A DNA stretch of 32,498 nt from Prevotella sp. (GTDB lineage: Bacteria; Bacteroidota; Bacteroidia; Bacteroidales; Bacteroidaceae). Positions 1,989 through 30,887 of the stretch are shown piece after piece. The DNA lies in the NCBI GenBank assembly GCA_017475005.1, contig JAFVGI010000051.1, forward strand, positions 1 through 32,498, in the 5' to 3' direction. The notes beneath the pieces were generated by a model. The model did not search any database. It worked only from the letters and a program-made list of their open reading frames with translations, and was not told the DNA's origin. The position numbers and the translations under genes are program-made. Numbering within the stretch: position 1 is the first letter of the stretch; every line of letters starts with the position of its first letter.

Positions 1989-2023
1989 GTTTAGTGTTTA
2001 GTGGTTAGCGGTTAGCGGTTAAA
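1989..2023. repeat. heptamer array A (5 units)
   Basis: Five contiguous 7-bp units: GTTTAGT twice, GGTTAGC twice, GGTTAAA. It fills the gap between two GH43 genes. It supplies the last residues (LTANR) and the TAA stop (2005-2007) of the upstream gene, and on the minus strand carries one TAA per unit. Confidence 0.85.
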
Positions 2024-3603
2024 GAATAATTCTTCACGGGTTGTCCTTTCTCATCGACGAAGCGGACGCACATATCGCTGAGTCCGGGGCCGTTGATGAT
2101 GGCACCACGAAGGGTGTTACGTCCTTTCTTGAGGGTGAGACGTTGTGACATTCCATCATCTTCCACCATACGGCGGTCGCCCTCAAGGAGTAATACCTCT
2201 GTCCCATTGAGCCACCACATAGAGGCACCGTTGGAGCCTACAGCAAGGCGCACACCTTCTATGTCGGCAGGACAATCGATAACCGTCTCGCACCAAAACA
2301 GGGAGCCGTAGGTCTGCTTGCCATATTGCTCAGCAAAACGGAACAGCTTCATGTTATATGTCTCGCTTTCAAGGTCGTACCACTTACCCTTCTGCTTTGG
2401 CAGCTTTGACAGTTCGTCAGCAAACTTGTTACGAAGCCACGAGTCGGTGAAGATAACGTTGGAACGTATCTCCTGACGGATGGGTTCGAGCATGTGCCAA
2501 CGTCTTATAAAACCTTGCTCATCGGGCTGCGAAGGTGCTGCTTTGGCTGGCACTAGAGAGAAGTATTTTGGATGCGGAGCTGTTGAGAGAATACCGCCAC
2601 CACGAATGGTCGGCTTAATCTCGGGAATAGTGCCGTCATCATTGAACTTTACCTTCTCGATGCGTACAGAACGGCGTTTGTCATCATTTGGAGACAGGTC
2701 GTTGCGATGATAGAAGAGATACCACTGTCCCTTATACTCCACGAAGCTGTGGTGGTTTGTCCAGCAGCCATTGTCATGTTCAGCCATAAAGACGCCCTTG
2801 AAGTCCCAAGGTCCGAGAGGCGACTTCGACATAGCATAGGCGAGTGTCTCGGTAGGATTGTCGCCATCAACACCTTTCTTGCCTCGAACCCACGGGAAGG
2901 TGAGATAATACCAGTCGCCGCGACGGAAGACAAAGGGACCTTCCTTGAAGCCTTCAGGCAAACCCTTCATCTCTTCGCCGCCCATCATAACAGGAGGCAT
3001 CTCGGGAGAGCCCTCACGACGTGGGAAACGCACTTCCTGCAGCTTGCCGTCAAGTTCCTTCATATTGGCCTTGAGCCTTGCTCCGCGAATGCCTCCACCG
3101 CCCCAGTAGATATATGCTTTGCCGTCGTTATCGACAAGCACGCAGGGGTCGATGCCGCTGATACCCTTGATGGGTTCCTGTTCACACACAAAAGGTCCTA
3201 CAGGACTGTCGGCAACGGCAACACCAATAGCGAAGCCACGCCCGGAACGGGGTGCATCAGGGAAATAGAAATAATACTTTCCGTCTTTCTCCACACAATC
3301 GGGAGCCCACATAGAATAGGCGTCGGGCTTACCCCAAGGCACTTGCTCCTGAGACAGAATGACACCATGATCGGTCCATTCGGCAAGATTCTCGGAAGAG
3401 AAGACATGATAGTCGGCCATACAGAACCAATCCTGCCGCTGTCCCTGTGGGGGTACTATATCGTGCGAGGGATACAGGTACACCTTGTTATTAAACACAC
3501 GCGCCGTAGGGTCAGCAGTAAACTGATCGCGGATAATGGGATTCTGTGCCACAGCCGTAACTGCAAGGCACAGACCCAGAGTGGAAAGGATTATCTTTTT
3601 CAT
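2005..3603 (-). CDS. secreted GH43 beta-xylosidase/arabinofuranosidase-like hydrolase
   Basis: 532 residues with an N-terminal signal peptide (MKKIILSTLG..., ending AVAQ). The GH43 triad is visible: base D31 (TADPTARVF), pKa modulator D152 (SGIDPCVLVD) and acid E221 (KEGPFVF). The blade motif NHHSFVEYKGQWYLFYHR is typical of xylosidase/arabinofuranosidase members. The propeller ends near residue 345. Residues about 360-532 form an extra beta-rich region (WWLNGTEVLLLEG, LKKGRNTLRG) resembling a jelly-roll carbohydrate-binding fold; I cannot assign its family. It lies 56 bp after the esterase-xylanase gene on the same strand, which fits release of xylose or arabinose from oligosaccharides made by that enzyme. 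Exact specificity cannot be read from sequence. The last residues and stop come from heptamer array A. Confidence 0.88.
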   Translation of the reverse strand: MKKIILSTLGLCLAVTAVAQNPIIRDQFTADPTARVFNNKVYLYPSHDIVPPQGQRQDWFCMADYHVFSSENLAEWTDHGVILSQEQVPWGKPDAYSMWAPDCVEKDGKYYFYFPDAPRSGRGFAIGVAVADSPVGPFVCEQEPIKGISGIDPCVLVDNDGKAYIYWGGGGIRGARLKANMKELDGKLQEVRFPRREGSPEMPPVMMGGEEMKGLPEGFKEGPFVFRRGDWYYLTFPWVRGKKGVDGDNPTETLAYAMSKSPLGPWDFKGVFMAEHDNGCWTNHHSFVEYKGQWYLFYHRNDLSPNDDKRRSVRIEKVKFNDDGTIPEIKPTIRGGGILSTAPHPKYFSLVPAKAAPSQPDEQGFIRRWHMLEPIRQEIRSNVIFTDSWLRNKFADELSKLPKQKGKWYDLESETYNMKLFRFAEQYGKQTYGSLFWCETVIDCPADIEGVRLAVGSNGASMWWLNGTEVLLLEGDRRMVEDDGMSQRLTLKKGRNTLRGAIINGPGLSDMCVRFVDEKGQPVKNYSLTANR

Positions 3604-3659
3604 TAAAACCTGAAACTTGTAATCGGCTTTGCCGCTTCGCTAGTCGAAGAAACCTGAAA

Positions 3660-6600
3660 CTATTTAAACAACATCGGAGCCATCTCACGCAGAGAGCGAC
3701 GCCAGGTAAGGAATTCGTGTGCTGTACCCTCGCTGATGAAGCCGTGAGCATTATATCCTGCAGCCTTCAGAGCATCAACACTCTTGCGGATGCCGTCAGG
3801 ATTTTCCTTAGAGCCACAACTCTCGAAAATCACGCGAACAGCCTTTGTGTCCTTGATATCCTCAGGAGCGTATGTGCCACCGCTGAGAAGTCCCCAATAA
3901 CCAAACACCTCAGGACGACGTGTGGTGATGAGCTTTGTCTCGACGCCACCCATTGACAGACCTGCCATAGCGCGGTTCCACTTGTCAGCCTTTGTGAGAT
4001 AGTTGGCATCGATGAACGGCACGAGTTCGTCAACAAGAAGTGTCTCGAACTCCTTAGCGGTGAAGCTGCCGATAGTGCCGAACTTTATATCGTTGGTGAG
4101 ACCGTATGCCATCACGATGATAAATGGCTTTATCTTACCTTCAGCAAGGAGGTTGTCCATTATGAGACCTGCATGTCCCTGACGGCTCCAGCTTGTCTCG
4201 TTCTCACCCCAGCCATGCTGCAGATAGAGCACAGGGAAACGTTCCTGCTTGCCCTTGACAAGCTTTCCGTATGTTGGAGGAAGATACACCATAGCGGTCT
4301 GCATCTTACCCTGACTTGGAGAATAATAGAGCACCTCCTGAACAGCGCCGTGAGGAATGTCTGTGCGAAGAGCATAGAAGTCCTGGTCGGGAGCAGGAAT
4401 CTCTATACCGCTCTCCCAACGGCAGGAACCGAAGTAGTTGTGTGTGCCAGGATCGTTGACAACAGCGCCGTCGATGGTGAGGTGATAGTAATGGAAACCA
4501 GGATCCATAGGACCTTCGGTAGTTCCTGTCCAGACGCCATCCTTGTCCTTACGGAGAACAGTACCACCACTGCCTCCAAGACCCAGGCTTACTATAACAG
4601 ACTTTGCATCAGGAGCAACCACACGGAAGCGGGCATAGCCTTCAGAATTAACCATAGGATACTGCTGACCAGGCTGGTTCATAGGGTTGGAAACAAAATC
4701 CTCCTTTGGCTTAACATTATCAAGAGAAGCATTGAAATTCTTCACAATAAGATATGAACGCTTTGGCTTGAGATTCTCGTCAAACACAAGCGGATGGTTG
4801 TTTACACCAAGCCATGAGTCGCGGTCAGAGAGGTTCCAGAACGTAACACAGTCGATGACGTCGCTATGTCTTCTGAAGATACGGAAGATGCGGTTGTACT
4901 GGTCTTCCTGCATCGTGCTGAGATATGATGTCAGAGGCTTTGACTCACCACGTGAGAACTGCAGCTGGCCGCCCTGTTCGGTATTAGTGCGGAGGTCGAG
5001 CTCTGTAACATGGATGTGCTTTACCAACTCGGAATACTTCGTAATAGCAGCCTCGAGTTCTTCCTCAGAAGGACCATAGATGTTGTAGTGACCCTGCATA
5101 CCGATACCATCGATAGGCACACCCTGTTCCTTCATCTTCTTCACCATATTATATATACGGTCGCGTTTGCCTGGGTCGCACTCGTTGTAGTCATTGTAGA
5201 ACAGCAACGCATTAGGATCTGCCTCACGAGCAAACTCAAATGCCTTGGCGATAAATTCGTCGCCACACAGCTGATACAGCTTGCTGTCACGATAAGGATT
5301 AGCAGGGCGTCCAGGACGTCCGAAAGTCCTGTCGGCAATAGCCTCGTTCACTACGTCCCAGCAATAAACGATGTCCTTATAGCGATTTATTACAGTATGA
5401 ATATGTTCGCGCAGGCGCTCGTAGAACACCTCTTTCTTTACCATACGGCCTTTCTTGTCGTAGAGCATCCAGTCAGTAAACTGTGAATGCCAGCAGAGAC
5501 AATGGCCACGCAGAGGAATGTTGTTCTCGCGGCAGTAGTTGGCTACGCTGTCAGCACCGCCCCAGTTCCAGACGCCTTCCTTCGGATGTACTGAAATAGG
5601 CTTCATGGTATTCTCTGCGGTAACGCTGTTGAATTCCTTTTTTATAAGTTGCATCTGCTCTGGAGCCGATACATTGCGACGATTTACTGCAACACCAATC
5701 TTGAAGTAGTCTTTGTAAGTATCTTTCATACCGAGTGCAGCATTAGGGTCAGCAGGACCTCTTTGTCCCCTTGCTGGTCGGTTGCTCCTTACGCTGTTGA
5801 GGAAGTTAACCATCTTCTGGAGATTCTCCTCTGTGTACATCGCAGGACCTCCGTGACCACCTTCTGCAGGATATGTTGCTTCTACCTTGACGCCTGCTGC
5901 CTTCAACAGTTCGTAGAACTTCTTACCCTGACAAACAGGCACCACATTATCCTTCTCACCGTGGAAGATGATAATAGGTGGGCAGTTTCTGTTGATATAG
6001 TTCGTAGCGCTCAGGCTAAGATATTTGTCCGGCTCCTTGTCGAGTTTTGACTTCAGCAGCACATCCTCAGGGCTATCCTTACCCATAGTGATATGATTTC
6101 CGCAATCCATTGCTGTCAAATCAACAGGACCTGACCAGTCGCAGGCAGCATTAATGAAGCTTGGCATATTTGTATATTGTCCCAAGTTACCCTCAAGGTC
6201 AATGTTGACAGAACCAACCTTCGCATTCTTTGTACCATTGGTGGTAGCCATGATAGAAGCGAGGTGCCCACCGCTGGAGAATCCGCTGGTAGCGATGAAT
6301 GATGGGTCGAACTTATATTTCTTTGCTTCGCCGCGTATAAAACGTACTACGGCACGGATATCATGAATCTGTGCTGGCCACTGAGCCTCTGTACTGCTGC
6401 GATGATTAGGACATACTACAGCATAGCCGGCATTGAGCAGTGATTTCACAATCGTACCGAGGTCTGCCATCCCTTTGCTGTTGTTGCTGAACCAAGCACT
6501 GCCGTAGATGTGAACAACTACGGGATAGCTCTCCTTTTGCTGTTTAGGTAAATAGATGTCGCAAGTGTGATATGCCTGGCCGTCACCAACATAATTGACA

Positions 6601-6728
6601 TCCTTCCATTCCTGAGAAGTCTCGAGTTTTGCATTCTGCTGTACACCTCCAAAACCACCTGCAGGCTGCGCTGACAAGTTCAGAATACTAAACAACGAAC
6701 ACAGAAATAAATAAAAAAAGCGTTTCAT
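3660..6728 (-). CDS. trifunctional secreted esterase - GH10 xylanase - CE1 feruloyl esterase
   Basis: 1022 residues with signal peptide 1-20. Residues about 35-315 are an alpha/beta-hydrolase of acetyl-xylan/feruloyl esterase type: nucleophile S151 (GFSSGG), probable D260 and H292 (GGHGG). Residues about 335-670 are GH10 endo-xylanase: acid/base E462 (WDVVNEA) and nucleophile E576 (HVTELDLR). Residues about 690-775 are an immunoglobulin/CBM48-like linker domain (YARFRVVAPDAKSVIV). Residues about 795-1022 are CE1 feruloyl esterase: QHGWGENE, S925 (GLSMGG), H1004 (TAHEF). GH10-CE1 fusions are known in rumen Prevotella (the Xyn10D-Fae1A type); here a second esterase is added in front. All catalytic motifs look intact. 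It is first gene of the minus-strand xylan cluster, with a promoter-like box at 6812-6819. The acyl specificity of the first esterase is inference. Confidence 0.93.
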   Translation of the reverse strand: MKRFFYLFLCSLFSILNLSAQPAGGFGGVQQNAKLETSQEWKDVNYVGDGQAYHTCDIYLPKQQKESYPVVVHIYGSAWFSNNSKGMADLGTIVKSLLNAGYAVVCPNHRSSTEAQWPAQIHDIRAVVRFIRGEAKKYKFDPSFIATSGFSSGGHLASIMATTNGTKNAKVGSVNIDLEGNLGQYTNMPSFINAACDWSGPVDLTAMDCGNHITMGKDSPEDVLLKSKLDKEPDKYLSLSATNYINRNCPPIIIFHGEKDNVVPVCQGKKFYELLKAAGVKVEATYPAEGGHGGPAMYTEENLQKMVNFLNSVRSNRPARGQRGPADPNAALGMKDTYKDYFKIGVAVNRRNVSAPEQMQLIKKEFNSVTAENTMKPISVHPKEGVWNWGGADSVANYCRENNIPLRGHCLCWHSQFTDWMLYDKKGRMVKKEVFYERLREHIHTVINRYKDIVYCWDVVNEAIADRTFGRPGRPANPYRDSKLYQLCGDEFIAKAFEFAREADPNALLFYNDYNECDPGKRDRIYNMVKKMKEQGVPIDGIGMQGHYNIYGPSEEELEAAITKYSELVKHIHVTELDLRTNTEQGGQLQFSRGESKPLTSYLSTMQEDQYNRIFRIFRRHSDVIDCVTFWNLSDRDSWLGVNNHPLVFDENLKPKRSYLIVKNFNASLDNVKPKEDFVSNPMNQPGQQYPMVNSEGYARFRVVAPDAKSVIVSLGLGGSGGTVLRKDKDGVWTGTTEGPMDPGFHYYHLTIDGAVVNDPGTHNYFGSCRWESGIEIPAPDQDFYALRTDIPHGAVQEVLYYSPSQGKMQTAMVYLPPTYGKLVKGKQERFPVLYLQHGWGENETSWSRQGHAGLIMDNLLAEGKIKPFIIVMAYGLTNDIKFGTIGSFTAKEFETLLVDELVPFIDANYLTKADKWNRAMAGLSMGGVETKLITTRRPEVFGYWGLLSGGTYAPEDIKDTKAVRVIFESCGSKENPDGIRKSVDALKAAGYNAHGFISEGTAHEFLTWRRSLREMAPMLFK

Positions 6729-6752
6729 AATTTATTTTATTGTTTAATTTTT

Positions 6753-6780
6753 TGGTTATTGTTTATCGGTTATTGGTTAT
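6753..6780. repeat. heptamer array B (4 units)
   Basis: Units TGGTTAT, TGTTTAT, CGGTTAT, TGGTTAT in strict 7-bp register. It lies in the presumed 5' leader of the xylanase gene, between its -7 box and ATG, so it is the only array in a leader of a divergent spacer rather than at a gene end. Confidence 0.75.
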
Positions 6781-6811
6781 CGACCACAACTATTAGACGA
6801 AAATTCGACCG

Positions 6812-6819
6812 CAAAGATA
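6812..6819 (-). promoter_or_regulatory. -7 box of the xylan cluster
   Basis: On the minus strand this reads TATCTTTG, a match to TAnnTTTG, about 85 bp before the ATG at 6728. No clear -33 TTTG is present at 19-21 bp, as expected of an activator-dependent promoter. Confidence 0.5.
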
Positions 6820-6849
6820 CTAAGAATATGATAAAAATTCTTTTTCTAT

Positions 6850-6896
6850 TGTATCATAAACTTTATTTCTTATCCCGTTGTACCGATATGTATCAT
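6850..6896. promoter_or_regulatory. direct repeat TGTATCAT upstream of the xylan promoter
   Basis: Identical octamers TGTATCAT at 6850-6857 and 6889-6896 (39 bp apart), each followed by a purine and AA, lie just upstream of the -7 box at 6812-6819. Position and spacing suit binding by a xylan-responsive activator; the regulator is not in the window. Confidence 0.3.
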
Positions 6897-6938
6897 GAAA
6901 TGAAATAAGTTTGTTATTAGTATTTTCAATGAAACCGC

Positions 6939-6974
6939 AAAAAAAATAGCCCCGACAGAAAAACTGCCGAGGCT
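6939..6974 (-). terminator. intrinsic terminator after the transglycosylase gene
   Basis: On the minus strand an 11-bp stem (arms 6964-6974 and 6948-6958, closed by two G-U pairs, 5-base loop) is followed by A and a run of eight U (6939-6946). It lies 40 bp past the stop at 7014. The G-U pairs make it far stronger on minus than on plus, which fixes its direction. Confidence 0.8.
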
Positions 6975-6991
6975 GTATTTTGTAAAAAGTC

Positions 6992-7026
6992 TTTAACCGT
7001 TAAACGTTAAACGTTAACCGTTATAA
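6992..7026. repeat. heptamer array C (5 units)
   Basis: Units TTTAACC, GTTAAAC twice, GTTAACC, GTTATAA. It encodes the last residues and the TAA stop (7014-7016) of the transglycosylase-like gene. TTAA in most units gives stops on both strands. Confidence 0.85.
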
Positions 7027-7451
7027 TGACGCATCACCTTATTATAGTATCTCTGGGTTGCACGAACAGAATAGCGTGCGCCACCATTCCAGATGCGGAT
7101 AGCTTTTTCTACACTATTTGATGGATTGTACTTACTCATGTAAATTACAAACATCTCTCTTGACTTCTCCTTGCTGAAACGGTCATTAAGCTTAAAACGC
7201 TTTGATGAACCTCTCTGCTTCAGGATAGCATTACAGTCGTAAACCAAGCCTGGTGAAATCTGCATGACACCAACGTATGGACCACACACGGCACGTGCGT
7301 TACCTCCGCTCTCTACTTTTGTGATGGCATCCATTACAGGACCCCAATCAAACTCTTCATCCTCTTCAACACGAGCAATTGCGCTGAGTGAGAACACAGC
7401 GATAAATGCTAAACAAATTACTTTCTTAAAAAAATTATCTCCAAATATCAT
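7014..7451 (-). CDS. small secreted lytic-transglycosylase-like (SLT) protein
   Basis: 145 residues from the Met at 7451. Signal peptide 1-26 (FFKKVICLAFIAVFSLSAIA), then a lysozyme-like SLT core: probable catalytic E47 (KVESGG), GPYVGVMQISP (57-67) and RIWNGGARYS (119-128). It would cleave peptidoglycan glycan strands in the periplasm. The frame is open further upstream to an ATG at 7577, but that codon lies inside the -7 box at 7575-7582, so it cannot be the start. A Met at 7559 is possible; 7451 is preferred because it places the hydrophobic segment as a signal peptide. It is shorter than typical SLT enzymes and has no LysM repeats. It is transcribed alone: a promoter at 7575-7606, a terminator at 6939-6974, and array C forming the gene end. 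Confidence 0.8.
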   Translation of the reverse strand: MIFGDNFFKKVICLAFIAVFSLSAIARVEEDEEFDWGPVMDAITKVESGGNARAVCGPYVGVMQISPGLVYDCNAILKQRGSSKRFKLNDRFSKEKSREMFVIYMSKYNPSNSVEKAIRIWNGGARYSVRATQRYYNKVMRHYNG

Positions 7452-7574
7452 GACTTTGATTTTGGTGGAACATAGATACGAGATGACAAATCCAAATGTA
7501 CTACAAATAAATAATGTAGATAAGAGATGTCGGTGGGGGTAATCTCGTACCGCAATCATTTTGATTTGCGAGTG

Positions 7575-7606
7575 CAAAGGTAAAAAGAATATTTTGTGTG
7601 CGCAAA
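7575..7606 (-). promoter_or_regulatory. promoter of the transglycosylase-like gene
   Basis: On the minus strand TTTG (7603-7606), 20 bases, then TACCTTTG (7575-7582), a full Bacteroidetes match. Transcription would begin near 7568, leaving a leader of about 117 nt before the ATG at 7451. Confidence 0.65.
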
Positions 7607-7737
7607 CAATTTTACATTTAATGTGGATATTTTAATGATTTTTTGATATGTATCAACATGGTAATAATTTTTATTCTTTTTTAACAACTTAATTTCTTTT
7701 ATTGTATTTTTCGGGCTGAAATATAAAATATTTTTTA

Positions 7738-7745
7738 TATCTTTG
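7738..7745 (+). promoter_or_regulatory. -7 box of purM and the 14-gene run
   Basis: TATCTTTG matches TAnnTTTG and lies 25 bp before the purM ATG. The -33 element is poor. It is the only clear promoter I can see for the following co-directional genes. Confidence 0.5.
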
Positions 7746-7770
7746 CAGCGCGTAATTAAGTTTTTGAAAT

Positions 7771-10034: not shown

Positions 10035-10050
10035 ATACATATTTTGCATT

Positions 10051-10203
10051 ATGGGAGTATTCACCAGTATAAAGAAAAAAGAAGAGAAAGAGGATGAGCG
10101 CACTATGCCCGCCTCTGAATTCATAGACCGCTTGACCAGAATACAGCAAAAGCAAGATCAGCAAAAGGATATCCCTTATACAGAAATGCCAAAAGACAAT
10201 TAA
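10051..10203 (+). CDS. 50-residue charged small protein
   Basis: ATG at 10051 and TAA at 10201-10203 give 50 residues beginning MGVFTSIKKKEEKEDE and containing ASEFIDRLTRIQQKQ. The first half is highly charged and the middle looks helical; there is no signal peptide or membrane segment. It sits 16 bp after prfA and 9 bp before pyrF, in the same direction, so it is very likely co-transcribed. I recognise no family. Its tight fit between two real genes is the main support; function unknown. Confidence 0.55.
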   Translation: MGVFTSIKKKEEKEDERTMPASEFIDRLTRIQQKQDQQKDIPYTEMPKDN

Positions 10204-10212
10204 GACAATATT

Positions 10213-11049
10213 ATGACAAGACAGCAATTAATAGAGCAGATCTTCAAGAAGAAGTCTTTTCTGTGTGTAGGACTTGACGTCGATATGGACAAGATACCAG
10301 CGTACTTGCTTGACGACGAAGATCCTATTTTCTCCTTCAACAGGAAAATAATAGACTATACAGCTCCCTACACAGTAGCATACAAGCCAAACCTGGCATT
10401 CTATGAGGCATACGGCCAGAAGGGATATATAGCCTTCGAGAAAACTGTGATGTATATACAACAGAGGTATCCGGAGATGTTTATCATAGCAGATGCTAAG
10501 CGTGGCGATATCGGCAACACCTCAAAGATGTATGCTAAGACATTTTTCGACACCTACAGAGTTGACGCCCTCACAGTAGCGCCTTATATGGGAGAAGACT
10601 CTGTGACACCATTTCTCAATGGCTACGAGAACAGATGGGTGATTCTCTTAGCGCTGACATCAAACAAGGGTTCTGCGGATTTCCAGCAGGATGCTGATGT
10701 AAATGGCGAGAGACTCTTTGAGAAGGTTATCCGTAAGTCACAGCAATGGGGAACACCAGAGAATATGATGTATGTGGTGGGAGCTACACGCGGAGAAATG
10801 TTCAAAGACGTCAGAAAGGTTGCTCCTGACCATTTCCTGCTTGTTCCTGGCGTTGGAGCACAAGGTGGTTCGCTGCAGGAGGTCTGTGAATATGGAATGA
10901 CAAAAGACTGCGGACTGCTCGTAAACTCTTCTCGTGGAATAATATATGCTGACAATACGGAATTCTTTGCAGACACAGCAGCCCAGAAGGCAAAAGAACT
11001 GCAGGAACAGATGGCAGCAGAGTTGGGGAAATTGAAAATTGATAATTGA
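10213..11049 (+). CDS. pyrF: orotidine-5'-phosphate decarboxylase (subfamily 2)
   Basis: 278 residues, the longer subfamily found in Bacteroidetes and Actinobacteria. It decarboxylates OMP to UMP, the last step of pyrimidine synthesis. The catalytic Asp-Lys-Asp signature is ADAKRGDIG (D94, K96, D99). [14 protein letters not shown] at about 16-29 is the first strand of the barrel and [10 protein letters not shown] (about 215-224) the phosphate-binding loop. Its last residues (KLKIDN) and TGA stop (11047-11049) are encoded by heptamer array D, so the C terminus appears to have been rewritten by the array. Confidence 0.95.
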
Positions 11050-11064
11050 CAATTGATAATTGAA
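11030..11064. repeat. heptamer array D (5 units)
   Basis: Units AATTGAA, AATTGAT, AATTGAC, AATTGAT, AATTGAA. It runs from the last pyrF codons through its stop into the 26-bp spacer before lpxD. Each unit holds a TGA. Confidence 0.85.
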
Positions 11065-11075
11065 ACCGATTGATT

Positions 11076-12125: not shown

Positions 12126-12134
12126 ATACTAACA

Positions 12135-13520: not shown

Positions 13521-13543
13521 TAACAATATAAAGAACAGAATAC

Positions 13544-19056: not shown

Positions 19057-19072
19057 ATATAATTTTTATAAT

Positions 19073-22231: not shown

Positions 22232-22271
22232 GAAAAGAGAATTTGAAATACAACTTTTAAAATATATAAAA

Positions 22272-22811: not shown

Positions 22812-22826
22812 GATTATTTATATCGT

Positions 22827-23528
22827 TTAGAAATTCTTTTCAAACCATGTCCTACCAACTGGTAGGAAGAGATTGTGGCCTGTTTCATTAAGGTGTGCTG
22901 TGTCTGTTCCCTTACCTCCCTGGAAGTATTTTTTGCGGAACTCTACGTCACGCACCTTTATGATGCAGGCATTATCATAATTCCACAGCACTGGAATTTT
23001 ATACTTCTTGCATACCTTCTTTATTATGTTACAAACATCCGCAAAGCCGGGTCTGTCAACATACCAGGGGGTAACAAAACCTATCTGTGCTTTCGGACAT
23101 AATGTCTTGATTCCCTTAATCATAGTCACAAGGGAATCCTTGAACATCTTAAGAGAATCTTTGTACATCTTAGGATTGTTCACTGCTCGTGCCACCATAT
23201 CAGCATCATTATGTCCTGCAATGATAATGACATAATCAGCATTAGGCTCCATCGCCTTATAACGTTGCCACATAGCAGGCCCGAAATTCCATTTGCCATC
23301 ATGGGTCCTGTCAAAGGCTATACATGACCCGTTCTTGCCATAGTTGTTGTAAGTAAAGCCTTTCTCCTGAGCCAGTTTATAGTGCCATGCCTCTGTATAG
23401 GGACAACGATGGTTGGCAACATAAGAGTCACCTATAATATTAAAAATCTTCTGCCCTTTTACAGCAATAAATGCTGCACCCATTAAGATGCAGCATATGA
23501 TAATACGAATTCTCATTAAATATCTCAC
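22827..23528 (-). CDS. secreted SGNH/GDSL hydrolase
   Basis: 233 residues (a Met at position 5 is an alternative start), signal peptide about 1-25. SGNH blocks: nucleophile S35 in IIGDSYVAN, GKNGS (64-68), GHND (105-108) with the oxyanion Asn, and D209-x-x-H212 in TDTAHLNETGH. Such enzymes are secreted esterases, often deacetylating glycans. Its place behind uxaA and a LacI-type regulator suggests removal of acetyl or other esters from uronic-acid-containing polysaccharide; that is inference from context only. Confidence 0.82.
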   Translation of the reverse strand: MRYLMRIRIIICCILMGAAFIAVKGQKIFNIIGDSYVANHRCPYTEAWHYKLAQEKGFTYNNYGKNGSCIAFDRTHDGKWNFGPAMWQRYKAMEPNADYVIIIAGHNDADMVARAVNNPKMYKDSLKMFKDSLVTMIKGIKTLCPKAQIGFVTPWYVDRPGFADVCNIIKKVCKKYKIPVLWNYDNACIIKVRDVEFRKKYFQGGKGTDTAHLNETGHNLFLPVGRTWFEKNF

Positions 23529-23535
23529 TTTATTC

Positions 23536-23563
23536 TTTAACCGTTAACCGATAACCGTTAACC
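23536..23563. repeat. heptamer array E (4 units)
   Basis: Units TTTAACC, GTTAACC, GATAACC, GTTAACC fill the 46-bp spacer between uxaA (stop near 23575) and the SGNH hydrolase start (23528). GTTAACC is shared with array C, on a different operon. Confidence 0.85.
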
Positions 23564-23574
23564 ATTATTCATAA

Positions 23575-25068
23575 CTAAAGCGTCACTCCATTCTTAAAGA
23601 TGGATATCTCCTGATAACCATTTATCTCATTCTTTGCTTTCTCACCAGAAGCCACAGCAAGAACTTTATCAATAAATTCTGCAGTCAGTTCTTTCATGGT
23701 CTTTTTGTCAACCAACTGTCCTGCATTGAAATCTATCCAGTTATTCTTGCGATTATACAGGTCATTGTTTGTGGATATCTTCATTGTTGGTACGAAGGTA
23801 CCGAATGGTGTTCCTCTTCCTGTTGAGAACAATACGAGATGACATCCTGCTGATGCTAATGCTGTAGCAGCAACAAGATCATTACCTGGTGCTGATAACA
23901 GATTCAATCCGTTAACCTTCAAGCGGTCTCCATACTCCAATACACCACTCACTGGAGCTCTGCCACATTTTTGTGTGCATCCTAAGGCCTTGTCTTCCAA
24001 TGTTGATATACCACCAGCCTTATTACCTGGTGAAGGATTCTCACCTACTGGTTCTCCATGTGACAGGAAATATTCCTTGAAGTTATTGATAAGAGATACT
24101 GTCTGGTCAAATAACTCCTTTGTCTCACAACGATTCATAAGAATTGTCTCTGCACCAAACATCTCAGGCACTTCTGTAAGAATAGATGTTCCACCCTGTG
24201 CTACAAGCCAGTCGGAGAATTCTCCCTCAAGTGGATTTGCTGTAATACCAGAGAGACCGTCTGAACCACCGCACTTCAGTCCTACACGTAACTTTGAAAC
24301 AGGAACATCAACACGCTTGTCCTCTTTTGCAATGTTATAAATACCACGTAAAATGTTCATGCAGTATTCTGTTTCGTCACCTTCAACTTTTTGTGTGACA
24401 ACCAGCTTTATGCGATCTTTGTCATAGTCACCGAGCATTTCCATAAAGGCATCCGGCTGGTTGTTCTCACAACCTAATGAGAGAACCAATACTCCACCAG
24501 CATTTGGATGAAGAACGATGTCGCGCAGAATCTTTCGTGTTGACTCATGGTCTTCTGACAACTGGGAGCATCCATAGTTATGATTCCATGCATGAACACC
24601 ATCAATACCTTGCAGACCGGTTTCCTGCTTGAGGGTGTTTGCCAGACGTTCTGCTATACCATTAACGCATCCTACAGTAGGTACAATCCAAATCTCGTTA
24701 CGTACTCCGATATCACCGTTCTTACGAACATATCCCTTAAAAGTCCTGTCCTCCTTCGCTATTGTCAGCTTTTCGTTTACGGGATTATAGGTGTATTCTA
24801 GGGTGCCGGCAAGATTTGTCTTAAGATTATTCTCATTAACCCACTCTCCGGCTTTCAGGGCTTTTCGTGCATGACCTATAGGATAACCGTATTTAATTAT
24901 ATCTTCTCCTTCTGCCTTGTCAGTAAGCAATACTTTGTGTCCCTGAGGGGTGTCTTGAAGTAAAATGACGGTTTTTCCGTCAACATTGATTTCCTCCCCC
25001 TTCTTCATTGGCTGCAGACACACAACAACAGAGTCAGCAGGATTGATTTTCAAAAATTTCTGTTCCAT
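23575..25068 (-). CDS. uxaA: altronate dehydratase
   Basis: 497 residues. It dehydrates D-altronate to 2-keto-3-deoxygluconate in galacturonate catabolism. Residues 1-about 95 are the SAF/UxaA N-terminal domain (SVVVCLQPMKKGEEI, YGYPIGHARKALKAGEWV) and the rest is the UxaA C-terminal domain (GYVRKNGDIGVRNEIW, VHAWNHNYGCSQ, LKCGGSDGLSGITANP, GCTQKCGRAPV). Histidines and cysteines suit the iron/metal-dependent mechanism. The product is the substrate of KdgK, encoded divergently nearby. It lies 94 bp downstream of the LacI-type regulator on the same strand. Confidence 0.94.
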   Translation of the reverse strand: MEQKFLKINPADSVVVCLQPMKKGEEINVDGKTVILLQDTPQGHKVLLTDKAEGEDIIKYGYPIGHARKALKAGEWVNENNLKTNLAGTLEYTYNPVNEKLTIAKEDRTFKGYVRKNGDIGVRNEIWIVPTVGCVNGIAERLANTLKQETGLQGIDGVHAWNHNYGCSQLSEDHESTRKILRDIVLHPNAGGVLVLSLGCENNQPDAFMEMLGDYDKDRIKLVVTQKVEGDETEYCMNILRGIYNIAKEDKRVDVPVSKLRVGLKCGGSDGLSGITANPLEGEFSDWLVAQGGTSILTEVPEMFGAETILMNRCETKELFDQTVSLINNFKEYFLSHGEPVGENPSPGNKAGGISTLEDKALGCTQKCGRAPVSGVLEYGDRLKVNGLNLLSAPGNDLVAATALASAGCHLVLFSTGRGTPFGTFVPTMKISTNNDLYNRKNNWIDFNAGQLVDKKTMKELTAEFIDKVLAVASGEKAKNEINGYQEISIFKNGVTL

Positions 25069-25112
25069 TTCTAATTAGTCAGTTTTATAATAGTATTTAT
25101 ATCTCTTAATTC

Positions 25113-25168
25113 AATAACCAATAACCAATAACCAATAACCAATAACCTATAAACTTTAACCGTTAAAT
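25113..25168. repeat. heptamer array F (8 units)
   Basis: Five AATAACC units, then TATAAAC, TTTAACC and GTTAAAT, in unbroken 7-bp register. It covers most of the lacI-uxaA spacer and supplies the TAA stop of the regulator (25163-25165). Unit sequence changes along the array but the period does not. Confidence 0.88.
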
Positions 25169-26230
25169 CTGTGTTCTGCGATAGAAAGCCATATTCTCCC
25201 TTGCCAGTATCTCTATCGGCATATAGTTTACAGGAGTGACATTACGCTTCAGCACAACAGCTCTTACAAGAGCATCGACACTGTAGTATCCCTGCTGGTA
25301 TCCATGCTGCGCTATGATGAAAGAAATACTTCCTTCATTAAGACATCTGGCGTTCTTCTCAACCATATCATAACCCATTATCTGAATATTGCGCCTGTTT
25401 GTCTGTAACAGGAAATCACCAACCAGATGAGCTTTGGAATTCATCGTGATACAATGGTGTGTCTTAGGATGGGTAGAGAAATATTTCTCCAATATAACCT
25501 GATTCTGCTTCTTCGTATTTTGATACGGCAAGTCCAGTGTGTTTATCTTTACATCAGGAAAATGGTCTGTCATATAGTGACGGAATCCCACCTCACGGTT
25601 ATCCTGCTGTTTCGATGCAACATTCTTTCCATCCAATGTCTGCTTCATCAGCATTATCTCAGTTTCCTTCGATGCTATGAGCATTAGCATCTTTGCAGCA
25701 AAGTATCCTGATGCAAAAGAATCCTGACCATAGAATGCCAATGGCCTTAAATCAGGCAGATAAGAATCCAGCAAGACAAAAGGAATGTTCCTCTCATGTA
25801 GTTCATCTGTGAAAACACGAGTATAATCTAGCTTTGATGGCACAATAGCAACACCGTCAGGATTTGAATCCAATATCCTTTCATATTGTTCCTGGAACGA
25901 TTTAACATCATTGCGCACATAGTACAGATGATTAATGTGCACATTGAAATCCTTTCGTGCCTCACAACATTTCTTCTGCCCCTCTTCGACTTCTGACCAA
26001 TATGCTTCGCTGTCATGTCGAGGCATGAGGCATATAAATTCGTATCGTTTATTGGATGCCAGTGCGCTGGCATAAGCATTGGGTTCATAATTCATCTCCT
26101 CCAATGCTGCCTTTACTTTAGCTAGAGCTTTTTTCGAGACATTAGGACGGTTGTGTAGTACCCTGTCAACCGTTCCTGACGATACACCTGCTCTCTCAGC
26201 AATGTCTTTTATCGTAATACGTTCATTCAT
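25163..26230 (-). CDS. LacI-family transcriptional regulator
   Basis: 355 residues. The N-terminal LacI helix-turn-helix is clear (ITIKDIAERAGVSSGTVDRVL, 5-25) with hinge helix NAYASALASN (about 56-65). The rest is a periplasmic-binding-like sugar-sensing domain (YEFICLMPRHDSEAYWSEVEE onward, GYDMVEKNARCLNEGSISFI). It is divergent from kdgK across a 237-bp spacer and co-directional with uxaA, so it probably controls both sugar-acid units. A 9-bp inverted repeat at 26367-26392 is a candidate operator. The inducer is likely a uronate intermediate; inference. Confidence 0.9.
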   Translation of the reverse strand: MNERITIKDIAERAGVSSGTVDRVLHNRPNVSKKALAKVKAALEEMNYEPNAYASALASNKRYEFICLMPRHDSEAYWSEVEEGQKKCCEARKDFNVHINHLYYVRNDVKSFQEQYERILDSNPDGVAIVPSKLDYTRVFTDELHERNIPFVLLDSYLPDLRPLAFYGQDSFASGYFAAKMLMLIASKETEIMLMKQTLDGKNVASKQQDNREVGFRHYMTDHFPDVKINTLDLPYQNTKKQNQVILEKYFSTHPKTHHCITMNSKAHLVGDFLLQTNRRNIQIMGYDMVEKNARCLNEGSISFIIAQHGYQQGYYSVDALVRAVVLKRNVTPVNYMPIEILARENMAFYRRTQI

Positions 26231-26293
26231 TGTCCCTGTGTTTTAGTTTAAATTCTATTGTGAGTGTTGTTACGGTTTTAGAGAAAATCGCAA

Positions 26294-26301
26294 CAAATGT
26301 A
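26294..26301 (-). promoter_or_regulatory. -7 box of the lacI-uxaA unit
   Basis: On the minus strand TACATTTG matches TAnnTTTG, 64 bp before the regulator ATG. No good -33 element is seen. Confidence 0.42.
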
Positions 26302-26366
26302 GTAATTTTTTATGAATTGTTTATTACACAATGCAAAATTTTGATGTACACACAGTGAAAATATGT

Positions 26367-26392
26367 TAATTGTAACCTAGATATTACAATTA
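26367..26392. promoter_or_regulatory. inverted repeat, candidate operator
   Basis: Arms TAATTGTAA (26367-26375) and TTACAATTA (26384-26392) are perfect inverted repeats with an 8-bp spacer. They overlap the -33 region of the kdgK promoter, a place where binding would block polymerase. It lacks the central CG common in LacI-family operators, so the cognate protein is uncertain. Confidence 0.45.
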
Positions 26393-26408
26393 TTCAATTG
26401 TTTATTGT

Positions 26409-26416
26409 TACCTTTG
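26409..26416 (+). promoter_or_regulatory. -7 box of kdgK-eda
   Basis: TACCTTTG matches TAnnTTTG and lies 52 bp before the kdgK ATG. The same octamer forms the -7 box at 7575-7582. The -33 region is weak and lies in the inverted repeat. Confidence 0.55.
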
Positions 26417-26467
26417 CAGACAAATGCATATAATATAAACCTCTAAAACTAACTTTTTTAATCAAAA

Positions 26468-27490
26468 ATGGCAAAAGTTGTAACATTGGGCGAGATTATG
26501 CTCCGCCTTTCTCCTAACGGTCAAGACCGTTTCATTCAAACAGACATTTTCCGTATCATCCCTGGCGGCGGTGAAGCTAACGTAGCAATTAGTTGTGCTA
26601 ACTATGGTCACGATGCATATTTCGTATCAAAACTCCCAGCACACGAAATCGGACAGATAGCAGTCAATTCTCTTCGTCGATATGGTGTTAATACACAGTT
26701 TATTGCTCGCGGTGGTGATCGTGTAGGTCTTTACTATTGTGAGACAGGTGCATCAATGCGTCCTTCAAAGGTCATCTACGATCGTGCTAACAGTGCCATT
26801 GCAGAGGCTGACCCATCTGATTTCGACTTTGATGTTATCATGGAAGGTGCTCAGTGGTTCCATTGGTCTGGTATCACTCCTGCTATTTCTGATAAGGCTG
26901 CAGAACTGACAAAACTGGCTTGTGAGGCTGCAAAGCGTCATGGCGTGACAGTATCTGTTGACCTCAACTTCCGTAAGAAATTGTGGACTTCTGAAAAAGC
27001 TATCTCTGTTATGCGTCCTCTCATGAAATATGTTGATGTATGTATAGGTAATGAGGAAGATGCAGAACTCTGTCTTGGCTTCAAGCCTGATGCTGACGTT
27101 GAAGGCGGTGAGACAAATGCAGAGGGTTACAAGGGTATCTTCGAGCAGATGATGAAGGAATTCGGATTCAAGTATGTTGTTTCTACACTCCGTGAGTCAT
27201 TCTCTGCTACATTCAATGGCTGGAAAGCTATGATATATGATGGTAAGGAATTCTACCAGTCAAAGCGTTATGAAATCAATCCTATCATCGACCGTGTTGG
27301 TGGTGGTGACTCTTTCTCTGGTGGTCTCATTCATGGTCTTCTGACAAAGCCAACACAGGGTGAAGCTCTTGAGTTCGCTGTTGCTGCATCAGCTCTGAAG
27401 CATACTATCAATGGTGACTATAACCTTGTTAATGCTGCTGAGGTAGAGGCTCTCGCTGGTGGTAATGCAAACGGACGCGTACAGCGTTAA
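26468..27490 (+). CDS. kdgK: 2-keto-3-deoxygluconate kinase (PfkB family)
   Basis: 340 residues. It phosphorylates 2-keto-3-deoxygluconate to KDPG with ATP in the cytoplasm. PfkB signatures: IIPGGGEANVAISC (30-43) and DRVGGGDSFSGGLIHG (275-290) with catalytic base D281. The family is broad, but the direct neighbour eda and the nearby uxaA make the KDG kinase assignment strong. The stop is followed at once by heptamer array G. Confidence 0.92.
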   Translation: MAKVVTLGEIMLRLSPNGQDRFIQTDIFRIIPGGGEANVAISCANYGHDAYFVSKLPAHEIGQIAVNSLRRYGVNTQFIARGGDRVGLYYCETGASMRPSKVIYDRANSAIAEADPSDFDFDVIMEGAQWFHWSGITPAISDKAAELTKLACEAAKRHGVTVSVDLNFRKKLWTSEKAISVMRPLMKYVDVCIGNEEDAELCLGFKPDADVEGGETNAEGYKGIFEQMMKEFGFKYVVSTLRESFSATFNGWKAMIYDGKEFYQSKRYEINPIIDRVGGGDSFSGGLIHGLLTKPTQGEALEFAVAASALKHTINGDYNLVNAAEVEALAGGNANGRVQR

Positions 27491-27532
27491 TGACAATTGA
27501 TAATTGACAATTGAAAGTTGAAAGTTAATAAT
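27491..27532. repeat. heptamer array G (6 units)
   Basis: Units TGACAAT, TGATAAT, TGACAAT, TGAAAGT twice, TAATAAT. It fills the kdgK-eda gap exactly, from the kdgK stop (27488-27490) to one base before the eda ATG. Every unit contains TGA or TAA. It is the same word family as array D. Confidence 0.87.
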
Positions 27533-27533
27533 T

Positions 27534-28202
27534 ATGGCAAAATTTGATAAATTTCAGGTGATGGCAAAGATTGCTGCCGCACCTATGGTTCCAGTTTTCT
27601 ATAACAAAGATATCGAGATTTGTAAGAATGTCATCAAGGCATGCTATGATGGTGGCGTTCGCGCTTTTGAGTTCACCAATCGTGGAGACTTCGCACATGA
27701 GGTTTTTGACGAACTCTCTAAGTGGGTTAACAAAGAATGCCCTGAATTGGCTCTTGGTATAGGTAGTGTCGTTGATGCTCCTACAGCAGCTCTTTACATC
27801 CAGATGGGTGCAAACTTTGTTGTTGGTCCACTCTTCAATCCTGATATCGCTGTTGTCTGCAATCGTCGTTGTGTGACCTACTGCCCAGGATGTCTCACAC
27901 CATCAGAGATTGGTAAGGCACAGGAAGTTGGCTGTGACTTCACAAAGGTATTCCCAGGTGATGTTGTTGGTCCAAATCTTATCAAAGGACTCATGGCTCC
28001 AATGCCTTGGTCAAAGATTATGGTTACTGGCGGTGTTGCTCCTGAGAAAGAGAATCTCGAGAGTTGGTTCAAGGCTGGCGTATTCTGTGTTGGTATGGGC
28101 TCTAAGTTATTCCCAAAAGACAAGGTAGCAGCTGGCGACTGGCAGTACGTTACCGACAAGTGTAAAGAAGCTCTTGGCTACTGCAATGCAGCTAAGGCCT
28201 AA
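27534..28202 (+). CDS. eda: KDPG (2-keto-3-deoxy-6-phosphogluconate) aldolase
   Basis: 222 residues. It cleaves KDPG to pyruvate and glyceraldehyde-3-phosphate, the last Entner-Doudoroff/uronate step. The Schiff-base lysine is K138 in [12 protein letters not shown], and E46 in [11 protein letters not shown] is the catalytic acid/base. [12 protein letters not shown] (94-105) is the family phosphate-side strand. It is co-transcribed with kdgK. A terminator hairpin begins 17 bp after the stop, inside the start of the next gene. Confidence 0.95.
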
Positions 28203-30834
28203 CATTGCGATATATATTGGCTCCACATGGCTTATTATGGCTATGTGGAGCCTTTTGTTGTGTACACCTGCTATGGCCCAAAAGGGAACAATAGCCTATG
28301 AGGTGTTACAGATGGACTCTTGTCGCATGAGAGCTGACAGTAAAGAGTTCTATCTGCATAAATACAATTTTGACAAACACATCAACAATGCCACTCCAGC
28401 AGAGCAAATACAGGCACAACTCATCTATGCTGATTTCCTGTTGCAGATGAGACAGTTCAAAGAGGCTCGTGCAGTTGTCGATTCTGTCGCTCTCCATGTG
28501 GCATATACTGATTCCTTGCTCTTCCTGAATTATCTTTACCATCAGGGAAAAGTGAGTTTCATCCCTGTTAACATCCAGAAGAACAAAGCCCTCATACAAA
28601 AGGGTTACGATGCGTTGGTGCAATGTTACATATTGTCAACACGAAGAAAGATTGATGAATACCGAGCTCTCTCTATGCAAGCCTTGAGTATGTATTTTTC
28701 TTACGACAGCATCTTTGCTATTGTTCGCGCCTATGATGCTCCCTCAGTACGATATATCAACGAATACAATGTTCCTGACTCGCTGTTGGCAGGAAATCTT
28801 GCAGAACGCACTCTGAGCATACTTCTTAATGGCAATAATGCATACCTGATTGCTGATGCCTGGCGCAATCTAAGCAGTTGCTATTTTCGTATTGGTGAAC
28901 CCCAGAAATCTGTTGAATGCCTGAATATGGCACTTGCCATTCCTGCTATTGATGATATGCCGGAACTGAAGACTTCCATAGCAGAGCAGATGTCTCTCTC
29001 CTACTCTGCCATGGATGATAAATTTCACAGCGACTATTATCGGAATATGTATCTCGACCTGCAGGATAGCACAAGACAGGACAGACAACTCGAGGCACGT
29101 GTGTTGGCACTCAATCAGACCACCAGTCGTATATGGATTCTGGTTTACATTGCCTGTGGAGTATTCATACTGTTGCTGATTTCCGTCATTACACTCATCC
29201 ATAACCATAAGGCTAACAAAATAAAGAAGGCTGACTTCGAAGAACTGGAAGAGAAACTGGCTCTTATGAAGTTAGAGAATACCAAGAGCATTCGTGCTAT
29301 GGTGGAACAGCGTGCCTGTGTTCAGGTTATTAATGGTATGCTGCCTCTTATCGAACGCATGGGACAGGCTGCTAAAAATGGAAAGATGGATTACTGTCAG
29401 GAACTGGCTCATGAGATAAATCGCCAGAACAATATGCTGACAGAATGGATTAAGATGCGACGAGGTGATATCCGCCCACATATAGAAAATGTAAATCTCA
29501 GTGATATCTTCTCTGTAATCAAAAAGACATCCACATCTACGACAAAAACCAATATAAAGGCTGACTCTTCTGCTGTGGTGAAAGCTGACAAAGCCCTGAC
29601 ATTGTTCCTCGTAAACACCCTTGTTGACAATGCCCGCAAAAGTGGTGCAACAGAAATAGATGTTAATGCCACTACTGGTAGCAACTATGCAGAAATAAGT
29701 GTCACAGACAATGGCAAGGGAATGACGGAAGAACAGCTGGCTCACCTCTTTGAATATAAACAGATTGATGGCAAGGGTGGCTTTGGTCTTCAGAACTGTC
29801 GTGGCATCATCGACCGTTATAAGAAGATTTCTTCTCTCTTTTCTGTCTGCATGATAAGTGCAAAGTCTGCTCTTGGTAAAGGCACTACGATATCGTTCCG
29901 TCTGCCACTCATAAAGAGTATTGTCATTGCTCTTGTCTCCCTCCTCAGCATCAGTATGCAAGCCAAGGAGATAGACAGATATGCTGACAGCCTTTACAAC
30001 TGCAATATCCAGGGCAGGTATTCTGATGCCCTGCTCTATGCTGACTCTTGTCGTGCTCATAGTGCAGATGCTGATTCTATAGTTTTGCTTTCAGTATATA
30101 ATGAGGAGGCTGTAGCATCTCTTGCTATGCACCAATGGACTCGTTATTTTAGCAGTAACTGGCAATATACCCTGCTCTATCGTGAACTAACTGCAGACAA
30201 GTCACTGCCTGACTATTACCGCAGTATGCAGCGTGCAGAGTTGCAGGCTAATATAGCAATGCTGGTAGTACTCATCCTTATCCTGTCGCTCATACCATTA
30301 GTGTGGTATCTGTACTTGAAGCCTATTGTCATACAGCGTCGGAAGGAACGTGAACGCAGGAATAACCTTGAGGAAGAGATAGCAGCCTTAAGGCAGGAGA
30401 ATGAACGTCTGCATGTCACCTCCAGCATCACAGACAATCAGTTGTCAACAGTAAAGCATGAGACGATGTACTATCCTTCTCGCATACTGCAGCTAATCAG
30501 TAGCAATGCGCCACAGGAGGAAATCTCCAATGCCATAGAATACTATAGGGAACTGTGTCTGATGCTCACCTCGAAAGTGCTGAAGCAAAAGCCGATGAAT
30601 TCTGATACCCTGCAGGAATTACGTGATTTCCTCCAACTCCTCATAAAGCGTCATAAGGAAGACCCGTTGACAGAAGAACAGGTATCAAGACTCTTCACCA
30701 TCGACACCCCACACACCGACTATCTCGTAATGCGACAGATAATGCGTGAAATTGGAGAAATAACCCACAATCGCAATTCCGGCATCACAGCCACATACCA
30801 AAACGGCAAAACCCAAATAACTCTTAATTCTTAA
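28186..30834 (+). CDS. orphan TPR-type sensor kinase with a C-terminal second membrane module
   Basis: 882 residues from the ATG at 28186 (an in-frame TTG at 28174 and ATGs at 28237/28243 are alternatives). Numbered from 28174: signal peptide ending about 36 (CTPAMAQ), helical TPR-like sensor (about 40-310), transmembrane 318-343, coiled coil, HATPase (about 470-577) with N-box [13 protein letters not shown] (512-516) and GKGGFGLQ (533-540). After it come a hydrophobic segment (580-596), a second TPR-like stretch (600-690), transmembrane 693-717, coiled coil and [12 protein letters not shown] with H762. It recalls the DUF5112/DUF5113 kinases of Bacteroidetes, from memory. The usual H-box position before the HATPase lacks a histidine. 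No response regulator is adjacent. Its first 16 bp overlap eda and its stop is in array H. Confidence 0.8.
28219..28260 (+). terminator. intrinsic terminator of kdgK-eda within the kinase signal-peptide codons
   Basis: Perfect 10-bp arms GGCTCCACAT (28219-28228) and ATGTGGAGCC (28243-28252), 14-base loop, followed by TTTTGTTG. It lies 17 bp past the eda stop, the normal place for a terminator, yet is translated as part of the sensor kinase signal peptide. The kinase may therefore be expressed by read-through only. Confidence 0.75.
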
Positions 30835-30887
30835 CTCTTAACTCTTAATTCTTAACTCTTAATTCTTAACTCTTAACTCTTAACTCT
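30818..30887. repeat. heptamer array H (10 units)
   Basis: Ten perfect contiguous units, seven TAACTCT and three TAATTCT, over 70 bp. It forms the last codons and the TAA stop (30832-30834) of the sensor kinase and the entire spacer to mnmE, whose GTG is 4 bp further on. Most junctions give TTAA, so stops occur on both strands. Confidence 0.92.

Follow-up and report, generated by a model that had tools for sequence, protein, structure and literature searches.

Tandem seven-base arrays with changing words in the gene spacers of a Prevotella clade

Spacers between the genes of a 32,498-nucleotide stretch of Prevotella DNA (contig JAFVGI010000051.1, referred to here as the window) contain tandem arrays of seven-base units, which raise the question of why so many different words should share a single period. 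The window is contig C42 of a 72-contig, 2.36 Mb (2,361,937 bases) Prevotella genome, G000. Eight such arrays had been described in the original prediction, and all eight lie at the positions given there when checked letter by letter, with seven of the eight exceeding a lag-7 score of 12. Arrays of this kind are numerous in the genome and its clade, follow stop codons in same-strand and convergent spacers, keep a seven-base register, and recur in the corresponding spacers of sister species. They are probably satellite-like heptanucleotide repeats that change by slippage of whole units, carry drifting words, and are excluded from genes and promoters by selection.

The excess of period seven was measured in an own-genome sample made up of the window and up to 20 kb from each of contigs C1-C20 (328,107 of 2,361,937 bases, 14%). 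At a score of at least 12, this sample holds 76 period-7 arrays, of which 61 fall for the most part in spacers and 15 in called open reading frames (ORFs), and the 61 spacer arrays compare with 0.2 in second-order Markov sequence. Other periods in the same spacers are rare (none for 5, 6 and 10; 6 for 8; 3 for 9; 4 for 11), and periods 14 and 21, which are multiples of 7, account for 34 and 15 arrays. At a score of at least 13, the 328 kb contain 71 arrays of period 7, five of period 8 and none of period 5 or 10, and 45 of the 71 are left once the repeat-dense contig C7 (locus L015) is excluded. The original prediction had staked its case on lag 7 standing above lags 6 and 8, and this is what autocorrelation of 143 own-genome spacers shows in comparison with shuffled spacers (z of 23.4 at lag 7, 5.8 at lag 6 and 5.5 at lag 8). 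Without contig C7, the corresponding values are 13.0, 7.2 and 4.9, together with a lag-2 value of 12.3 that reflects low-order structure removed by simple shuffling. In the window alone, z is 6.5 at lag 7, 1.6 at lag 6, 2.2 at lag 8 and 9.6 at lag 14, and the higher value at lag 14 is as expected if pairs of units are copied. The arrays share with prokaryotic heptanucleotide simple sequence repeats both a mostly intergenic location and a frequency above chance and above neighboring periods.

Register is strict as well, since a continuation shifted by one to three bases (with a match of 6/7 or better) follows only 1 of 102 array 3' ends; one exception is the counterpart of the 6992-7026 array in the relative G101, which is partly octameric (AACCGTTA). 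A single period, many words and drift without insertion or deletion are confirmed, as is the view that slippage of one word does not suffice as an explanation. An assembly artifact is ruled out by the presence of arrays in other assemblies and in the one-contig genome G045. Genes in these samples are longest-ORF calls with uncertain start codons, and arrays lying at least 80% inside called ORFs were excluded from the spacer tests and are reported separately. At L015 4666-5526, a called DNA alkylation repair gene starts with residues translated from a heptamer array (5454-5490), a case from which it appears that arrays may extend proteins at the N terminus or lead gene calling astray.

Placement relative to genes is far from uniform. 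Among spacers of at least 14 nucleotides (nt) in G000 and its close relative G098, and with 13 G000 arrays without a gene on one side left out of these orientation tests, arrays occur in 44/163 tandem spacers (29/111 and 15/52, respectively) and 12/30 convergent spacers (7/20 and 5/10), as against 1/34 divergent spacers, which contain promoters only (1/23 and 0/11). Counted by array over all sampled loci, which are mostly from Prevotella, 112 are tandem, 26 convergent and 6 divergent, compared with 1323, 251 and 303 spacers of these types. Within convergent spacers, array density peaks in the first 40 nt behind the stop (0.17-0.21) and falls to 0.02 at distances above 320 nt. Of 77 arrays counted, 28 touch a stop codon. 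The preference for gene ends that had been proposed is borne out by this clustering and by the near-absence of arrays from divergent spacers.

Conservation of the sites was assessed spacer by spacer between the window and five close genomes (G098 and G100-G103) at a score of at least 9. In 83 comparisons, which are not independent, an array was present in both genomes in 18, in the window only in 4, in the relative only in 8, and in neither in 53 (Fisher p 9e-9). The relative has an array in 18 of the 22 comparisons in which the window does, and the possibility that the arrays would prove absent from orthologous spacers of close relatives is thereby dismissed. Words at orthologous sites are alike more often than others, differing by at most one change in 9/24 orthologous pairs and 13/228 non-orthologous pairs; this is a fairer measure than the nearest-word distances at the 18 shared sites (0-1 changes in nine, 2 in two, 3-4 in seven), which lean low because the nearest of several words is taken. 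Point changes become common within an array, and words are replaced while the period is kept, which weakens any claim of a fixed recognition word. The eight arrays of the window are as follows.

1989..2023, minus strand: heptamer array GTTTAGT/GGTTAGC, five units, containing the stop codon of the GH43 gene 2005-3603 (minus strand)
6753..6780, no strand assigned: weak heptamer array TGGTTAT/CGGTTAT, four units, 5' of the xylanase/esterase gene 3660-6728 (minus strand)
6992..7026, minus strand: heptamer array TTAACCG/TTAAACG, five units, spanning the stop of gene 7014-7577 (minus strand)
11030..11064, plus strand: heptamer array AATTGAN, five units, spanning the stop of an OMP decarboxylase gene (pyrF-like), near the lpxD start
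23536..23563, no strand assigned: heptamer array TTAACCG/ATAACCG, four units, between genes 23575-25068 (minus strand) and 22827-23528 (minus strand)
25113..25168, minus strand: heptamer array AATAACC (five times) grading into TATAAAC, TTTAACC and GTTAAAT, eight units, containing the stop of the LacI-type regulator gene 25163-26230 (minus strand)
27491..27532, plus strand: heptamer array TGACAAT grading into TGAAAGT, six units, filling the gap from the PfkB kinase gene to the KDPG aldolase gene
30818..30887, plus strand: heptamer array TAACTCT/TAATTCT, ten units, spanning the stop of gene 28174-30834 and reaching the mnmE start

Stop codons at 2005, 7014, 11047, 25163 and 30832 lie inside arrays, and a sixth array, at 27491, starts right after a gene end (gene 26468-27490 ends one base ahead of it), all as previously described. 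The weakest array, 6753-6780, reaches a lag-7 score of 10 against the main threshold of 12, although Tandem Repeats Finder detects periods 7 and 14 there; its counterpart spacer in G101 holds a long ACTAATC array. The spacer between the OMP decarboxylase and LpxD genes carries a heptamer array in all five relatives (AAAGTGA, ACATTGA, ACGTTGA, TTAAGAG and AAGTGAA), with words that are mostly related across the window and the five. Behind the LacI-type gene, five words occur in five genomes (AATAACC, GACCTTA, AATTATC, AATTATG and GTAAACC), two of which differ by one base. For 1989..2023, the counterpart in G098 is of GGTTAG type and that in G101 consists of TTGACAA. The spacer of 6992..7026 has the related word TTAACCT in G100, TTAACCC beside the octamer noted above in G101, and no array found in G098. 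At 23536..23563, a different word, TCAATTA, is present in G100 and no array in G102, while the counterparts of 27491..27532 in G098 and G100 carry related words. Before mnmE, TAACTCT-like units are common to the window and G098, the G100 counterpart runs through TAACTCC, TAACTTT, TAATTAT, AAATTTT, CAATTCT and CAATTAT in register throughout, and no array is present in G101 or G102. Genes beside the window arrays are ordinary (GH43 and GH10 enzymes, a release factor, OMP decarboxylase, LpxD, LpxC-FabZ, a LacI-type regulator, a PfkB kinase, KDPG aldolase and MnmE). Phase-variation contingency repeats sit within or ahead of surface genes and switch a frame or promoter; among the eight window arrays, viewed gene by gene, several follow stops beside housekeeping genes (pyrF, lpxD, mnmE), and two lie beside secreted-type glycosidases.

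Array content differs widely among relatives, which were drawn from the best 80 of at least 582 matches and sampled as one genome per species. At a score of at least 13, G098 (88% identity in a test gene) has 31 heptamer and 5 octamer arrays in 160 kb; together with the 71 heptamer arrays in 328 kb of G000, this puts the clade at about 200 per megabase. Heptamer and octamer counts at this score are 6 and 1 in G045, 4 and 2 in G015, and 1 and 0 in G010 (80 kb each), 0 and 1 in G001 (54 kb), and 0 and 1 in G075 (40 kb). Four other Prevotella genomes (G016, G024, G061 and G084) have neither in 280 kb, a zero count by which period-7 arrays are lineage-specific. Outside the genus, heptamer arrays number two in 289 kb of the order (16 stretches, one from the same family; both arrays in one genome), two in 220 kb of the class and one in 173 kb of the phylum. 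A tree of 81 LpxC proteins shows array-rich loci interspersed with array-poor ones (at least 11 changes), each species being represented by only about 20 kb. One further Prevotella, G224, has 22 octamer arrays and 3 heptamer arrays in 115 kb, with 11 octamer words; counted by spacer, heptamers and octamers stand at 42 and 5 in G000 and at 3 and 16 in G224 (Fisher 2e-8). In G224 (L052, L232, L233, L235), some octamer arrays after genes are inverted pairs, such as GTTGTTTA followed by CAAACAAC, that are hairpin-capable and resemble terminators made of repeats. In another genome, G226 (L240), positions 100-177 and 939-1030 show AACCTTA alternating with AAACCTTA, a mixture of seven and eight bases with a telomere-like look.

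Under the slippage explanation, a slip with a step of about seven bases would create a seven-base unit, and further slippage would gain or lose whole units, whereby unit length would be inherited, substitutions would spread or be lost among units, and words would turn over. Purifying selection would then confine the arrays, because a seven-base step in a gene would break the frame and in a divergent spacer would disturb promoters. At a gene end, a unit with a stop triplet would close every frame within 21 bases, making length changes there nearly harmless; the stop triplet would be a price of survival and not a purpose.

Several observations weigh against this explanation or lie beyond it. A single unit length in each genome is not predicted by neutral slippage, and neither is a vocabulary common to distant Prevotella, in which 16 of 43 distinct words are shared with the clade and 4.7 are expected (standard deviation 1.9, maximum 11 in 500; computed without L184 and L186-L190, short loci of the clade's own genomes). 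The choice of words is therefore constrained, perhaps because the process prefers certain sequences, because arrays spread from genome to genome, or through effects of composition that the null does not capture. Slippage also does not account for a step that is seven in this genome and eight in another Prevotella. At 7 of the 18 shared sites, words are 3-4 changes apart, about as distant as unrelated words, which slippage does not by itself explain unless arrays were replaced or reborn there. In tandem spacers, array density near starts (0.15 at 10-40 nt) roughly matches that near stops (0.13-0.18), being high at both ends because tandem spacers are short; in convergent spacers, density falls with distance from the stop though no promoter is there to protect, which hints at a cause acting at gene ends. 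Finally, in data of one genome per species, no variation in unit number within a species was seen, though unit numbers do differ between species.

A rather doubtful extension is that unit length is set genome-wide in each Prevotella lineage, at seven for the window's clade and at eight for G224, with one setting applied to many different words at the ends of genes. If so, a factor of replication, repair or transcription would measure the unit, and the arrays would record that factor. With rich and poor species in one clade, conserved sites with changing words, and a relative whose arrays are mostly octamers, the seven-base step is open to comparative and laboratory tests.

That a trans-acting enzyme, such as a nuclease, polymerase or reverse transcriptase, measures the unit and makes the arrays is improbable, even though the contrast in unit length between G000 and G224 is genome-wide, because four similar words account for 13 of the 22 octamer arrays in G224 and the individual candidates fared poorly. 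Reverse transcriptase (RVT_1, PF00078) was not found in six of seven array-rich genomes, which are mostly incomplete drafts (G098 has one), and was found in all seven others (one below the cut-off), a distribution that tells against the templating process once proposed. The MutL domain PF01119 is present in 14/14 genomes and shows no fit with array richness. The large subunit of exonuclease VII, XseA, offered an exploratory link: in G000, G098, G100 and G102, it lacks about 44 aligned residues, and in G228 a different part of the same region is missing from the alignment. The shortened region is presumably the coiled-coil arm. Shortening of this extent (L251-L255) is seen in many Prevotella and arose in at least two ways. 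In a first set of 52 loci, with L049 (which has both forms) counted as full, heptamer- and octamer-dominated loci numbered 0 and 4 among 13 with full-length XseA and 22 and 1 among 39 with the short form; the difference in heptamer density was not significant (p 0.087), and tree-based pairs agreed in 4/4 (p 0.125). A pre-stated test on other loci failed to repeat this pattern, and XseA length was rejected as the setter of the unit: octamer-dominated new loci included two full, five short and one without a match, after G001 (full XseA) had been dropped following the result as the genome of the already used L037, and heptamer-dominated ones included one full, three short and one without a match. 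New stretches of genomes with full-length XseA gave heptamer-to-octamer ratios of 3:1 (G258), 1:1 (G260) and 3:0 (G249), and G045, also with full-length XseA, gave 6:1.

Horizontal or intragenomic spread, in which arrays are copied from site to site and inherit unit length and vocabulary from a few founders, would account for a vocabulary common to several species and for the composite arrays of contig C7, where several spacers use the same words. It is nevertheless quite improbable, as words within one change at 9 of the 18 orthologous sites fit descent in place, and no conserved flanks, terminal repeats or transposases were noticed beside the arrays, although no systematic search for them was made. 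On contig C7, long composite heptamer spacers lie between several genes in L015 1-8000 and repeat a similar word order (ACTCTAA, ACTATAA, CCTTTAA, CCGTTAA, CAATAAC).

The words themselves are diverse, with 162 spacer arrays of the sampled loci comprising 71 distinct words up to rotation and strand. In the following pooled counts, G001 and G007 are the genomes of L037 and L040, and the counts for the lists of clade and distant words, common pattern, purine/pyrimidine grouping and stop-triplet distance consequently hold a few repeated loci; all of these except the word lists, together with the orientation counts, include L195-L230 from outside the genus (five heptamer arrays in all), and positions of L191 overlapping L029 were skipped for grouping, stop-triplet distance and orientation. 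A weak common pattern, TTRAARG, scores 3.07, compared with 2.57-2.78 in 12 null sets, and purines and pyrimidines are grouped, only two switches per unit occurring in 75/145 arrays and 48.9 of shuffled ones. These regularities are compatible with tiled sites for a weakly specific single-strand binding protein of the cold-shock or S1 type, with a seven-base footprint and acting on mRNA 3' ends and operon spacers, as are the location of most arrays in spacers likely to be transcribed and the binding of one CspB per heptamer with weak sequence specificity (cited in an excerpt of PMC4679880). Orientation of the word pattern is sense in 57/67 cases within 10 nt of a stop, in 82/113 spacer cases overall, in 15/30 beyond 40 nt, and in 14/40 ORF-internal arrays. 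The bias at stops is expected because a gene-end array without an in-frame stop would be read as a longer gene, and RNA-level binding read from the overall strand bias is undone by the even distribution farther away and inside ORFs. Tiled binding sites are accordingly an unlikely explanation, given also that the same word is seen in both orientations, that words are replaced at conserved sites, and that an octamer genome exists. Hairpin-forming words were likewise rejected, as only 3 of 36 distinct words are full palindromes, no more than the 3.2 expected; the excess counted by array (22/89 vs. 12.9) arises because a few such words recur.

Stop triplets are the regularity on which the original prediction based a possible function, that of frame-independent stop cassettes. 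Under this rival explanation, units would be kept because a stop triplet every seven bases leaves no frame open behind a gene and halts read-through or frameshifted ribosomes. In tandem contexts, 57/62 spacer arrays have a sense stop in each unit, compared with 42.9 for composition-matched spacer heptamers; five of the eight window arrays contain the stop codon of a gene, and octamers would close all frames likewise (8 mod 3 = 2). Yet once ORF-internal arrays are included (n=80), the antisense strand, where stops would be useless, shows an excess (58 vs. 42.0) no smaller than that of the sense strand (59 vs. 50.3), and an array that lacks sense stops tends by construction to fall within a called ORF. 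Relative to shuffled units, the excess is also similar within 10 nt of a stop (63/68 vs. 51.1) and beyond 40 nt (26/30 vs. 19.5), with antisense triplets within 10 nt at 43/68 vs. 31.8, and four sampled Prevotella genomes have no such arrays at all. A selected stop cassette is therefore rejected as the main function and is retained only as an improbable rival.

Heptamer repeats are a long-established feature of bacterial DNA, and their cause is unsettled in the excerpts of the papers cited here. As reported in excerpts of PMC4679880 and PMC4692102, Mrazek, Guo and Shah (2007) found heptamers to be the commonest class of long simple sequence repeats in most of their genomes, and Mrazek and colleagues proposed polymerase slippage, seven bases being perhaps the length held by the polymerase. 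The favored explanation of the Prevotella arrays, slippage in whole units with word turnover and selection, would thus correspond in outline to what has been published for other bacteria. Compared with the repeats so described, the present arrays are imperfect, many AT-rich words coexist, sites are conserved while words change, and one relative uses mostly eight bases.

Two further published systems resemble the arrays in part. The TAACTGA direct repeats of Beggiatoaceae, cyanobacteria and five Bacteroidetes (MacGregor 2015, PMC4679880, in excerpt) are also spacer heptamers with stops in all frames, some overlapping upstream stop codons; other heptamers are mixed in within some Bacteroidetes spacers, and indels between two Cyanothece strains are mostly in steps of seven. 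In the main genome of that excerpt, one word dominates and lies mostly just upstream of start codons, whereas the bias of orientation here is at the upstream stop, and arrays occupy 12/30 convergent spacers, which have no start, and 1/34 divergent spacers, which have only starts. TAACTGA, in any rotation or strand, is found neither among the 39 words of the clade nor among the 47 distant ones. The GGGAATC and GGGGA(C/T)T repeats of Xanthomonas and Nostoc (PMC4692102, in excerpt) are G-rich, quadruplex-forming and of one consensus; only 7-8% lie between divergent genes, which are avoided here too, and a majority have the same flanking genes in two Xanthomonas species, though their length and sequence vary. 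Unlike these, the words of the window's clade are AT-rich and without G-runs. None of the 39 clade words contains GGG or CCC. Cyanobacterial STRR are tandem heptanucleotides, and by their description the present arrays resemble them in being tandem heptamers of several words. Three tandem heptanucleotides of Calothrix are mentioned in the excerpt of PMC4692102.

The claim that no description had been published therefore fails, because heptamer over-representation, all-frame stops and overlap with upstream stops are in print for other bacteria, as the excerpts of PMC4679880 and PMC4692102 attest. Among the matches listed in a literature search that most subscription journals fell outside, no paper was found that dealt with Prevotella heptamer arrays, with words being replaced at conserved sites under an unchanged period (the nearest being the length and sequence variation of one consensus in the excerpt of PMC4692102), or with species divided between heptamers and octamers. 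Four features were not found among those matches and are apparently new: the coexistence of many words under a single period, site conservation despite word replacement, a vocabulary common to Prevotella species, and a Prevotella genome rich in octamers (22 vs. 3).

A terminator-like hairpin, judged by eye, follows the 6992..7026 array at about 6938-6975, and the window holds no RNA families at gathering scores and no tRNAs. An octamer array, TGACACGA, occupies positions 15-46, and nonamer arrays at 88-113 (GCGTACCAT/GCGTACCAC) and 221-247 (ATGGTACGC) are near reverse complements that could pair as a hairpin.

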